In this document: piece by piece, positions 43,378-47,097 of the stretch | Layout: the number at the start of each line of letters is the position of its first letter | Position numbering within the stretch: position 1 is the first letter of the stretch | Source: Corynebacterium suedekumii | GTDB taxonomy: Bacteria > Actinomycetota > Actinomycetes > Mycobacteriales > Mycobacteriaceae | Assembly (NCBI RefSeq): GCF_030252185.1 | Contig: NZ_CP126970.1 | Span: 682,001 to 746,000 of the forward strand | Reading direction: 5' to 3' | DNA: 64,000 nucleotides | Position numbers and translations under genes: made by a program | Notes under the pieces: generated by a model | The model's database searches: none | Seen by the model: only the letters and a program-made list of their open reading frames with translations | Told to the model about the DNA's origin: nothing

Positions 43378-44541
43378 ATGGGACAGCGCAGCTGGATGCG
43401 CGTCGGATTGGCCCTATTCATCATCGCGTTCGGCGCGAACCTCTTCGCCCCGCTGCTGCCCGCCTACCGCGCCGTCGCCGGACTGAGCCAGTCCCACGTC
43501 ACCTTCCTCCTGGCCATTTACGTCGCCGGTCTCGTACCCGCCCTGCTCATCGGTGGGCCGCTGTCCGACGTCCGCGGGCGTAAGGCCCTCATCCGCCCCG
43601 CCCTCGTCCTCTCCGCCGTCGGTTCCCTCATCCTCATCCTCGGCGTCACCGGGTCGGTGCTCGTGCTCGCGGTCGGCCGCTTCGTCGTCGGCGCCGCCAT
43701 CGGGCTGGTGATGGCCGCAGGTGCCGCCTGGCTCCAGGAACTGTCCACCGGACCACCTCATGTCGGCGCCCGCCGTGCCACGGTCTTCCTCTCCGCCGGG
43801 TTCGGGCTCGGCCCCCTGGCCAGCGGGCTCGTCGCGCAGCTTCTGCCGTATCCGGACCTCCTCCCCTATCTGGTCCACCTGGTGCTGCTCGGGCTCATCT
43901 CCCCCTGGTCCTGGAACGCCGCAGGCGGCACGGCCCACCCTGACGCCCAGCGGCGGGCCTGGTTCCCCCGCAGCGTTCTCACACCACGCTTCCTGTGGTC
44001 CGTCGCCGCCTGGGCACCATGGGGCTTCGGCGCGGTGACCACCGCCTTCGCCACTCTGACGGACCTGGTTCTCGACGAGGTGACCTGGCCGGTGGCGTTC
44101 ACCGGGATGATCGCCGCGGTCACCATGCTCACCGGGGTGCTCATCCAGCCGGTGGCCACCCGCTTCGGCAGCGATCTCGTCCCGCCCGCCGTCCTGGGAC
44201 TGGCGCTGGTCATCGCCGGCATGCTCGCCTCCGCCGCCGTCGCCGCCACCCGACTACCGCACCTGGTCATCCCGGCCGCGATCCTGCTGGGCGCCAGTTA
44301 CGGAATCATTATGGTCTCCGGGCTGCGCGAGGTCCGGGCGATCGCACCGCCCGAGGACCTCGGCGCCGCCACAGGCGTGTTCTATTCGCTGACCTACGTG
44401 GGCTTCTTCGCCCCGTTCGTCATGTCGGTCGTCGGCCCCTTCATCGGCTACCAGACCGTCTTCCTCATCGGCGCCGTCGTCGCCGCGGCGTCGATCATCC
44501 CGGTCACCCGCGTCGCTGCCCGGCCGACCGACACCGACTAA
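43378..44541 (+). CDS. MFS transporter
   Basis: A 387-residue, 12-helix permease with the loop motif GGPLSDVRGRKALIRPAL and LPLLPAYR-like start (NLFAPLLPAYRAVAGLSQSHVTFLLAIYVAGL), similar to EmrB/QacA-unrelated efflux MFS proteins. AGAGGAG precedes ATG 43378. The substrate is unknown. Its TAA stop overlaps the convergent dnaB TAG. Confidence 0.86.
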   Translation: MGQRSWMRVGLALFIIAFGANLFAPLLPAYRAVAGLSQSHVTFLLAIYVAGLVPALLIGGPLSDVRGRKALIRPALVLSAVGSLILILGVTGSVLVLAVGRFVVGAAIGLVMAAGAAWLQELSTGPPHVGARRATVFLSAGFGLGPLASGLVAQLLPYPDLLPYLVHLVLLGLISPWSWNAAGGTAHPDAQRRAWFPRSVLTPRFLWSVAAWAPWGFGAVTTAFATLTDLVLDEVTWPVAFTGMIAAVTMLTGVLIQPVATRFGSDLVPPAVLGLALVIAGMLASAAVAATRLPHLVIPAAILLGASYGIIMVSGLREVRAIAPPEDLGAATGVFYSLTYVGFFAPFVMSVVGPFIGYQTVFLIGAVVAAASIIPVTRVAARPTDTD

Positions 44542-46021
44542 CCCCGGGCCAGATCCACGAAGCGGGAGTAATGCAGCTGGTGGGCCACGGTGACGGTGTC
44601 GATGGGCCCGCCACGGTGCTTGGCCAGGATGATGTCGGCCTCGCCCGCGCGCTCGTTCTCCTTGTCCTGGGAGTCCGGGCGGTAGAGCAGCATGACCATG
44701 TCGGCGTCCTGCTCCAGTGAACCGGACTCACGCAGGTCGGCCAGCTGCGGGCGCTTGTCCGTACGCGCCTCGGGTCCACGGTTGAGCTGCGAGATGGCGA
44801 TGAGCGGCACATCGAGTTCCTTGGCCAGCAGCTTGAGCTGTCGGGAGAACTCCGAGACCTCCTGCTGGCGGGACTCGACCTTCTTGCCGGAGCTCATCAG
44901 CTGGAGGTAGTCGAGCACGATGAGCTGCAGGTCGTGCTTCTGCTTGAGTCGCCGGGCCTTGGAGCGGATCTCCATCATGGTGAGGTTCGGTGAGTCGTCG
45001 ATGAACAGCGGCGCCTCGGAGATCTGGCCGACCCGGTTGGCCAGCTTGGTCCACTGTTCGTCGTTCATCCGGCCGGCACGCATGTCGGAGAGCTTGATCT
45101 CCGTCTCGGCGGACATCAGTCGCATGACGATCTCCGACTTGCTCATCTCCAGCGAGAAGATGGCCGAGGCCTTGCCGTGCTTGATCGAGGCTGAGCGCAT
45201 GAAGTCGAGCGCGATGGTCGACTTACCCACACCGGGTCGGGCGGCGACGATGATCATCTGCCCGCCGTGGAGGCCGTTGGTGAGGTTGTCCAGGTCGACG
45301 AAGCCGGTGGGCACGCCCTGGGCGAGGCCGCCGAGGTTGGCGATCTTGTCCAGTTCCTCCATCGTCGGTTCGATCATGTCGGCCAGGACCGCGTAGTCCT
45401 CGGTCTCCGTGCGCTGGGCGATGGCGAAGACCTCCTGCTGCGCGAGGTCGAGGACCGTCTCCACCTCCGCGCCCTCCGTCCCCTCATAGCCGAGCTGGAC
45501 CACGCGGGTACCGGCGTCGACGAGGCGGCGAAGAATGGCCTTCTCCGCGACGATCTCTGCGTAGTAGCGGGCGTTGGCGGCCGTGGGCACCGAGGAGATG
45601 AGGGTGTGCAGGTACGGCGCCCCGCCGACCCGCTCGAGCTCGTTGTGGCGGTCCAGTCGCCCGGCGACGATGACCGGGTCAATGTCCTTGCTCTCGCCGA
45701 ACAGGTCGATCATCGCGGTGTAGATCAGCTGGTGCGCCGGGTGGTAGAAGTCCTCCGGGTCCAGATCACCGATGATCTCCACCACCGTGTTCGGGCTCAG
45801 CAGCATGGCGCCGAGGACGCCCTGCTCCGCCTCCCGATCATGTGGTGGCTGGCGAAACTCGCCGTAGTTCGTCGGGGCGGCCGACTTGTCACGGTAGCGC
45901 CGGGACGGCCCCTCCCCGACTGGGCCTGGGGAACGGGCAGGGCGGAATCGTCCGGCTCCGAGGGTTCCGTCGGCGGAACGTAGTCGTCGTCGAAGCTTGC
46001 TCCGCCAAATCCCGTGGTCAT
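44538..46021 (-). CDS. dnaB: Replicative DNA helicase DnaB, apparent one-base frameshift near the N-terminus
   Basis: Hexameric 5'-3' helicase that opens the replication fork. N-terminal domain: FRQPPHDREAEQGVLGAMLLSP and PAHQLIYTAMIDLF. RecA-fold motor: Walker A AARPGVGKSTIALDF, Walker B LQLIVLDYLQLM, and IAISQLNRGPEARTDKRPQLADLRESGSLEQDADMVMLLYRP. The first ~36 codons (MTTGFGGASFDDDYVPPTEP from ATG 46021, AAGGA upstream) are in another frame. Adding one base to the run at 45914-45917 (CCCC on plus) gives QAQSGEGPSRRYRDKSAAPTNYGEF and a 494-residue protein. An essential gene cannot be broken, so this is probably a consensus error. The upstream gap carries the DnaA-box cluster. Confidence 0.94.
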
Positions 46022-46644
46022 GGGCACTATCCTTCCTTGCCGCCGGCTGGTCGCCGTGCTGTCCGCAGTGTATCCCCGTGAACCCCGGCACGCCCAAGCG
46101 AATCCGGGGTCGGCTGTGGGTAACCACCCCTCCCCGCAGGCGTCCCGGAGCGGTTGTCCACAGCCGGATCACCCCCGGGGATCCGCCGGTTATCCACAAC
46201 CCCTGTGGATTATTCAGGTTAACGGCGGTGAACGTTCCACCGGGACCCGGCCGCCTTGTGGACAACCTGTGGACAAACCAACCTCTTCCCGGCGCCGTCG
46301 GGGCGGAAACCGCAGGTCACGGGGACTGTGACACCTGTGACCAACGAGGTCTCCACAGTGGACAACTGCCCCTACCAGCCTGTTTGACAGACCCCGGAAA
46401 GACCGCTACTTCATTCATGAAGAATGCCGGGACACATCGTGGGGGCGACGCGGGGGTGGCCACCAGGTGAATCATCCCCAGTTCTCCACAGTTGTCCACA
46501 GCCGGAGATCCGGTCGGGTCCACCCGTGGCAGACCAGCGGCCCCGGTCCGGCACCATGGGTGTCGGAGCGGGGCCGCGGGCCTGCTGTTGTCGTTGGGCC
46601 GAGTCATCCCCGGTGAGGGGCTCAGCCGCCGTCTGGCGCGTGAG
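46022..46644. other. dnaB-rplI intergenic region with a cluster of DnaA-box-like sequences
   Basis: 623 bp without a credible gene. Nine 9-mers match TTATCCACA or the actinobacterial form TTGTCCACA with at most one change: 46115-46123 (-), 46154-46162 (+), 46190-46198 (+, exact TTATCCACA), 46204-46212 (-), 46257-46265 (-), 46268-46276 (-), 46357-46365 (-), 46482-46490 (+), 46492-46500 (+). Four are exact TTGTCCACA. Two pairs are spaced one helical turn apart (46257/46268 and 46482/46492). There is no AT-rich unwinding element and no dnaA/dnaN beside it, so it is unlikely to be oriC itself. It could titrate DnaA or let DnaA control dnaB. Confidence 0.8.
46067..46097 (-). promoter_or_regulatory. 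Candidate dnaB promoter
   Basis: On the minus strand TACACT (46072-46067) lies 45 bp before the dnaB ATG, with TTGGGC (46097-46092) upstream at a long 19-bp spacing. The nearest DnaA-box-like sequence is 18 bp further upstream. Confidence 0.4.
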
Positions 46645-47097
46645 TTACGCGGCGACGACCTCAAAGTTGATCTTGCCGGTCACGTCGTCGTGCAGCTTGA
46701 CCTGAACCTGGTAGTTACCGGTCTTCTTGACCAGTCCCTTGGGAAGCTCGATGTTGCGCTTGTCCAGGGTCGGGCCGCCTGCCTTCTTGACGGCGTCGGC
46801 GATGTCGTCTGCCTTCACGGAGCCGAAGAGCTTGCCGCTGTCGGAGGTGCGGACAGCGACGGAGACGCCGGTGAGGCCCTCCAGCTGCTCGCGGACCTCG
46901 CGGGCGTGATCGAGGTCGCGGATGGCGCGAGCCTCCTGGGCACGCTGGATGCCCTCGATCTGCTTCTCGGCACCGCGGGTGGCCACGATGGCCAGTCCGC
47001 GGGGAAGCAGGTAGTTGCGTCCGTAGCCGTTCTTGACCTCGACGATGTCGCCTGCGACTCCGAGGTTCTCAACGGCAGCGGTGAGGATCAGCTTCAT
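46645..47097 (-). CDS. rplI: 50S ribosomal protein L9
   Basis: A 150-residue 23S-binding stalk-base protein. The N-terminal domain MKLILTAAVENLGVAGDIVEVKNGYGRNYLLPRGLA is the L9 signature, followed by the long connecting helix and the C-terminal domain (GKLFGSVKADDIADAV). GAAAGGCAGGGATC precedes ATG 47097. It lies 88 bp after ssb; the usual rpsR copy is absent between ssb and rplI, as often in corynebacteria. Confidence 0.97.
   Translation of the reverse strand: MKLILTAAVENLGVAGDIVEVKNGYGRNYLLPRGLAIVATRGAEKQIEGIQRAQEARAIRDLDHAREVREQLEGLTGVSVAVRTSDSGKLFGSVKADDIADAVKKAGGPTLDKRNIELPKGLVKKTGNYQVQVKLHDDVTGKINFEVVAA

Follow-up and report, generated by a model that had tools for sequence, protein, structure and literature searches.

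A conserved array of DnaA boxes between rplI and dnaB in Corynebacterium, a probable DnaA-binding control region of the replicative helicase gene

Structure of the rplI–dnaB gap

The window, i.e., the whole stretch of 64,000 nucleotides of Corynebacterium suedekumii analyzed here, corresponds to G000:C1:682001-746000 in a genome composed of one contig of 2,858,263 bp. It was searched for the DnaA-box motif TTRTCCACA, either exact or with one mismatch. The gap between rplI and dnaB was found to carry an array of such boxes, and the features in and around this gap are as follows.

44538–46021, minus strand: dnaB, replicative helicase (Pfam DnaB and DnaB_C)
46067–46072, minus strand: putative −10 element of dnaB (TACACT); TAnACT is conserved here in an alignment with eight close relatives
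46115–46500, both strands: DnaA-box array in the rplI–dnaB gap (box scan, shuffles and conservation)
46115–46123, minus strand: one-mismatch box TTACCCACA, the box closest to dnaB; several close relatives have it in exact form
46154–46162, plus strand: exact box TTGTCCACA (motif scan)
46190–46212: head-to-head pair with 14 bp spacing, exact TTATCCACA (46190–46198, plus strand) and one-mismatch TAATCCACA (46204–46212, minus strand)
46257–46276, minus strand: tandem pair with 11 bp spacing, both exact TTGTCCACA (46257 and 46268)
46312–46319, minus strand: accessory motif TGACCTGC, present in the window as a single half-site
46357–46365, minus strand: one-mismatch box TTGTCCACT, weak
46482–46500, plus strand: tandem pair with 10 bp spacing, one-mismatch TTCTCCACA (46482) and exact TTGTCCACA (46492)
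46537–46577, minus strand: inverted repeat 3′ of rplI, seen in the sequence (arms 46537–46545 and 46569–46577)
46645–47097, minus strand: rplI, ribosomal protein L9 (Pfam Ribosomal_L9_N and Ribosomal_L9_C)

In the direction of transcription, rplI is followed by the inverted repeat, which judging from its sequence is likely to be the rplI terminator, and then by the pair 46492/46482, the weak box at 46357 and TGACCTGC at 46319–46312. The second half consists of the pair 46268/46257, the pair 46204/46190, the boxes at 46154 and 46115, the putative −10 element and dnaB. A DnaA-box cluster is located directly 5′ of dnaB: the box nearest to this gene (46115) lies 42 bp from the putative −10 element and does not overlap it. 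In the alignment with the eight close relatives, the boxes and the TAnACT sequence near the dnaB start stand out amid diverged sequence.

The nine boxes described in the earlier note were all found at their positions: one exact TTATCCACA (46190, plus strand), four exact TTGTCCACA (46154 and 46492 on the plus strand, 46257 and 46268 on the minus strand), and four with one mismatch (46115, 46204 and 46357 on the minus strand, 46482 on the plus strand). The two pairs of boxes that it had pointed out as having the same orientation and being separated by one helical turn (46257/46268, 11 bp; 46482/46492, 10 bp) were also verified, and a third pair absent from that note, the head-to-head pair 46190/46204 with 14 bp spacing, was recognized.

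Several other sequences were found in this region. One is the 9-mer GACAACAGC at 46584–46592, just 3′ of rplI and before the likely terminator, which is shared by 39 of the 40 non-redundant gaps of Corynebacterium, lies in the flanks of 3, and is rare beyond Corynebacterium (2 of 49 family rows and 0 of 20 class genomes). Another is the conserved DnaB start peptide MTTGFGGASFDDDYVPP (45876–46021, minus strand, start at 46021), which is out of frame with the DnaB core; this offset is a frameshift or a sequence error within the first 50 codons of dnaB. A GTCACA repeat (around 46317–46345), which we take to resemble the MtrA motif, was dropped as a candidate, since close relatives carry a box-like sequence at the same place. 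An RNA element was likewise rejected, because a search of 45900–46700 against Rfam gave only two matches, both far below the gathering score.

Occurrence of the boxes in the window and in the genome

All five exact boxes of the 64-kb window are in the array, within 347 bp, and none of 100 shuffles reached five. For the stretch of 773 bp from the rplI stop codon to the conserved DnaB core, which contains these five boxes, 5000 dinucleotide shuffles provided a mean of 0.0074 exact boxes and a maximum of 1; a chance origin is very unlikely, as the earlier note had supposed. The sites with at most one mismatch number 24 in the window as compared with a shuffle mean of 12.5, and a lone one-mismatch site therefore means little.

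In the whole genome, 43 exact boxes occur, while the reversed pattern used as a control occurs 12 times. The clusters among them are the array (5 in 347 bp), the rpmH-dnaA region (4), the dnaA-dnaN region (3), and a cluster near 823 kb (3). The last cluster (L083 1062–1276, corresponding to G000:C1:823.06–823.28 kb) is flanked by a rhomboid gene and crgA, with a gene for a PASTA-domain protein in the vicinity. Nowhere else in the 2.86-Mb genome are exact boxes packed as densely as in the array. The C-terminal DnaA domain is encoded at 801.6–801.8 kb, which places the array about 72 kb from dnaA and oriC.

The box density of the array is similar to that of oriC, and a minor or cryptic replication origin may be considered on this ground. 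An origin-like reading was rejected, however, from two facts: the gap has no AT-rich unwinding tract, its poorest 60 bp having a GC content of 50%, and dnaA, with the oriC clusters and its own box clusters, is about 72 kb away rather than adjacent together with dnaN. It is well supported that the array is not the main oriC, and even a cryptic origin is very improbable.

Isolated box pairs arranged back-to-back at a fixed spacing of 15 bp were also observed in the genome of the window (G000:C1 at 141.2, 153.1, 1164.1, 1673.1 and 2511.3 kb), and among the matches listed for C. flavescens (G208), such pairs occur at many places with a spacing of about 28 bp. These pairs form a repeated palindrome of their own, one copy of which (L084) lies in front of an open reading frame without a Pfam match. 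Their recurrence at fixed spacing, which is strong in C. flavescens, might suggest that the boxes of the array are also unrelated to DnaA, being a repeated palindrome or the sites of another protein that resemble boxes. Nevertheless, the pairs of the array are tandem or head-to-head, not back-to-back, the same motif composes oriC and the rpmH-dnaA cluster, and the mycobacterial counterpart is bound by DnaA (PMC7738170, in the excerpts at hand). We regard a non-DnaA origin of the array as hardly credible.

Conservation in and beyond the genus

From 344 rplI loci, the best 80 were kept as the genus sample. For 13 of these, no dnaB was found within the locus, and the 67 remaining named rplI–dnaB loci together with the window provided 68 gaps. 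Relatedness was handled only in a set of 40 non-redundant gaps (shorter than 1.5 kb), and the other counts are unweighted. A clear contrast is seen between the gaps and their flanks: 257 exact boxes occur in 88,236 bp of gaps, while only 2 occur in 738,340 bp of flank, and the reversed motif has no match in the 68 gaps. At least one exact box was found in 68 of the 68 gaps, at least two in 66, and at least three in 59. The earlier note had named a lack of conservation in sister species, or a box density equal to the background, as findings that would speak against it, and these counts clearly show the opposite on both points. The one-mismatch sites provided a weaker signal (170 in the gaps and 233 in the flank).

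Of the 40 non-redundant gaps, 39 contain TTATCCACA and 18 contain TTGTCCACA, and their flanks contain neither; these gaps carry 165 exact boxes as compared with a shuffle mean of 0.39. When the spacings were counted for pairs with at least one exact box, the commonest close ones were head-to-head 14 (19 gaps), tandem 20 (15), tandem 11 (14) and tandem 10 (11).

At the family level, dnaB was located in 151 genomes, and the sequence upstream of it was examined for 30 other genera in 45 rows, which represent 44 distinct loci (L107 and L142 are the same G050 locus). For loci with no rplI found in the vicinity, the 700 bp directly preceding the DnaB core served instead. In these rows, 49 exact boxes occur in 36.6 kb 5′ of dnaB, as compared with 2 in 141 kb of comparison sequence. 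An exact box is present in 30 of the 45 rows (21 of the 30 genera) and absent in 15, and a box with at most one mismatch is present in 44. For the class, 20 genomes taken from 60 provided 14 exact boxes in 20.6 kb versus 1 in 38.5 kb; the exact box is present 5′ of dnaB in 10 of the 20 and absent in the other 10, and at least a one-mismatch box is present in all 20. The box signal at this position is conserved in other genera of Mycobacteriaceae and in other families of Actinomycetia.

Positional relationship between the array and dnaB

The loci in which the gene order differs may provide a clue to understanding which gene the array accompanies. In six loci (L055, L056, L059, L060, L063 and L064), other genes lie between rplI and the array, and the array stays at dnaB. 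In L065 and L061, boxes were found upstream of a dnaB located elsewhere (the contig of L061 ends 2.6 kb past rplI). In nine loci (L011, L013, L014, L018, L022, L046, L049, L050 and L051), a co-directional open reading frame of about 600–640 amino acids lies between the array and dnaB; it belongs to GH15 by Pfam in all three cases tested (L011, L022 and L046), mostly ends close to dnaB (except in L022), and has the array upstream of it in all nine.

Four further loci have the array parted from dnaB. In L026 and L028, rplI and dnaB are divergently oriented on one contig, with about 9.3 kb between them, and the array remains 3′ of rplI. The gene after the array in L028 is a convergent UPF0176/rhodanese gene, and its neighbor in L026 is inferred to be the same. 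In L034, two opposite-strand genes (TatD-like and ThiF-like) split the array from dnaB, so that the array lies between convergent ends, and in L036, a histidine-kinase frame and an opposite-strand frame do so. In all four, dnaB has no exact box close by; for L026 and L028, none was found within 1.5 kb upstream of dnaB, and for L036, no box was found within 1.5 kb of it. When L026 and L028 are compared, five boxes are identical at 45 of 45 positions, while the remainder of the array shows 81% identity (197 of 242), the two parts flanking it show 72% and 56%, and rplI shows 98.7%. L026, L034 and L036 are metagenome assemblies, and errors of assembly could account for their rearrangements; L028 carries no such label, and agrees with L026. 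These four loci indicate that dnaB is not the only purpose of the array and that dnaB can dispense with it.

The array appears to be nearly or wholly lost in four genomes, each with at most one exact box at the places read: no exact box was found near rplI or dnaB in G054, none in the places read in L054, and one each in those read in L029 and L052. L053 and L066 terminate at contig edges. In L076, L078 and L081, named as members of Propionibacteriaceae genera or of the family, and in L079, named as Propionibacterium, no exact box was found just 3′ of rplI, the only side read; in L079 and L081, a single exact match falls within the coordinates of rplI.

These results bear on another suggestion of the earlier note, namely, that the array is mainly a DnaA sink or activity switch of the datA or DARS type. 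The array would then lie beside dnaB by chance and, being duplicated early, would bind free DnaA or alter its nucleotide state and thereby limit or time re-initiation. The density of the array, the highest in the genome, its distance of about 72 kb from oriC, its persistence where dnaB is elsewhere or cut off, and the identity of the five boxes in L026 and L028 amid the less conserved rest all fit this idea. On the other hand, the boxes follow dnaB across the class and stay with it in the six loci separated from rplI, the array appears lost in several genomes, and the effect of a mycobacterial DnaA mutant on dnaB points to transcription (PMC7738170, in the excerpts at hand). We consider a role mainly as a sink or switch possible but rather doubtful.

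Accessory motif

The gaps contain the motif TGACCTGC 75 times (48 of the 68 loci), as compared with 99 times for the 738 kb of flank; of 30 corynebacterial dnaA upstream regions, 10 carry it. Many clades have it as a dyad, TGACCTGC-13/16-GCAGGTCA. The perfect dyad occurs 7 times in the gaps and never in the flanks, and with at most one mismatch, the numbers are 21 and 4; at two or three mismatches, the absolute number of matches is higher in the flanks. In eight genomes, composed of seven picked for a good dyad and that of the window, six have a single copy of the perfect dyad, one has two copies, and that of the window has none. The dyad is retained in L026 and L028, and is absent in the clade of the window (the window and L002–L009), where a half-site was found in the window and in L005. 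Because of this absence, the dyad was left out of the main claim.

Upstream of dnaB in the class, TGACCTGC was found in 12 of 20 genomes (12 in 14.3 kb versus 6 in 45.2 kb, one of the 12 being probably in coding DNA; reversed control, 1 versus 3). In the family, it was found in 9 of 49 rows (9 in 34.6 kb versus 10 in 161 kb, two of the nine rows being the same genome; reversed control, 3 versus 27). A strict composite, TGACCTGC-N10-TCCAC-N4-TGTGG, the box part of which is a head-to-head pair, occurs nine times in 60 class genomes: five are upstream of dnaB, and four are upstream of YgjP-like genes, which are metallopeptidase genes. The YgjP locus L254 carries a further strict composite, and L252 carries a variant. 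The loci with TGACCTGC or the composite comprise the window (46312–46319), L028, L041, L148, L150, L223, L227, L244 and L254. The composite was not found at the corynebacterial YgjP loci examined (22 loci of relatives, 9 of them without a parsed open reading frame). A loose form, found in 30 of the 60 genomes, was discounted, since the reversed control was comparable in many genomes, and only the strict 32-base geometry stands out. The occurrence of the composite in several other families, upstream of both dnaB and a YgjP-like gene, may point to a small shared regulon of DnaA and a partner.

A different sequence, TTAACGGC, seen by eye in the array and in the dnaA upstream region of the same genome, was dropped because it is rare: the gaps contain 4 copies in 88 kb, the flanks 5 in 738 kb, and 1 of 30 dnaA upstream regions carries it. 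A search of the open-licence literature yielded no description of the array in Corynebacterium or of TGACCTGC at dnaB, and nothing relevant on TGACCTGC with DnaA.

Possible function of the array

The presence of the boxes in Corynebacterium, their excess over chance, their conservation, their arrangement and their location are direct observations. Judged from the sequence and by analogy, DnaA binding appears to be the only reasonable reading of the boxes, since the same motif builds the oriC and dnaA-promoter (rpmH-dnaA) clusters of the genome, since all 30 corynebacterial dnaA upstream regions tested carry it, and since the DnaA of Mycobacterium tuberculosis binds the counterpart (PMC7738170, in the excerpts at hand). 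With a probability of about 0.6, the array is a set of high-affinity sites for DnaA within the dnaB control region, and the corynebacterial counterpart of the mycobacterial Rv0057-region site. Direct control of dnaB by DnaA, which the earlier note had offered as an alternative, agrees with the position of the array, its conservation and the mycobacterial data on binding and expression (same excerpts of PMC7738170); DnaA binding and the link to dnaB are published for mycobacteria only, and would hold for Corynebacterium by analogy. The boxes 5′ of dnaB across the class and the array staying at dnaB favor such control, while its persistence without dnaB favors an additional direct effect on DnaA.

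DnaA most likely loads cooperatively on the paired boxes, two pairs being tandem and one head-to-head. Since the nearest box is 42 bp upstream of the putative −10 element and does not overlap it, DnaA would more likely tune, and probably raise, the transcription of dnaB than block it, and the supply of the helicase would follow the initiator. Following each initiation, the array probably also retains a part of the DnaA, because it is large, about 72 kb from oriC, and kept in some genomes without an adjoining dnaB. A broader and more tentative proposal, which we put forward as a conjecture, is that a self-standing DnaA control module of Actinomycetia, composed of paired boxes and a TGACCTGC partner site, is normally located at dnaB, is under selection even when separated from it, and acts on both DnaA (as an analogue of datA or DARS) and dnaB.

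The limits on replication initiation are less understood in Actinobacteria than in Escherichia coli. An array tied to the helicase gene throughout the class would link the initiator level to the helicase supply. The genomes in which the array is cut from dnaB offer a natural way of telling control of transcription from sequestration of DnaA, and the accessory motif TGACCTGC points to a partner.

Comparison with known systems

The array resembles datA, DARS1 and DARS2 of E. coli in being a non-origin box cluster that could hold or switch DnaA, with TGACCTGC as a possible accessory site. These E. coli loci are defined by IHF or Fis sites and by nucleotide hydrolysis or exchange: datA, which has an IHF site, promotes the hydrolysis of DnaA-ATP or titrates DnaA, and the box core of DARS promotes the nucleotide exchange of ADP-DnaA. 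In Streptomyces, DnaA-box clusters near, but outside, oriC are thought to titrate DnaA; like the array, they are actinobacterial boxes outside oriC. In the distant phylum of Caulobacter, dnaB belongs to the DnaA regulon, with predicted upstream boxes and DnaA-dependent expression (Hottes et al. 2005, cited in PMC8203912), and a dense array is not stated in the excerpts of PMC8203912 at hand.

The closest system is that of mycobacteria (Hicks et al. 2020, PMC7738170; in the excerpts at hand). The DnaA of M. tuberculosis binds five regions in vitro, namely, oriC, Rv0010c-Rv0011c, Rv0057 (upstream of dnaB), Rv3843c-RVnc0040 and rpmH-dnaA, and the homologues of these regions are bound in vivo in M. 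smegmatis, as found by ChIP-seq. The DnaA mutant I282T binds more weakly upstream of dnaB and under-expresses dnaB, which is a correlation in one mycobacterial mutant. The box clusters of the window genome match the four of these five sites that were compared (oriC, Rv0010c-Rv0011c, Rv0057 and rpmH-dnaA); the match of Rv0010c-Rv0011c, by position, is the 823-kb cluster, which is distinct from the array and about 95 kb away from it. The same excerpts describe neither an array at the mycobacterial dnaB site nor its conservation. The Rv0057-region site likewise consists of DnaA-type boxes 5′ of dnaB near the origin; binding is known for the mycobacterial site, while the corynebacterial array has more exact boxes, a longer gap and clear paired modules.
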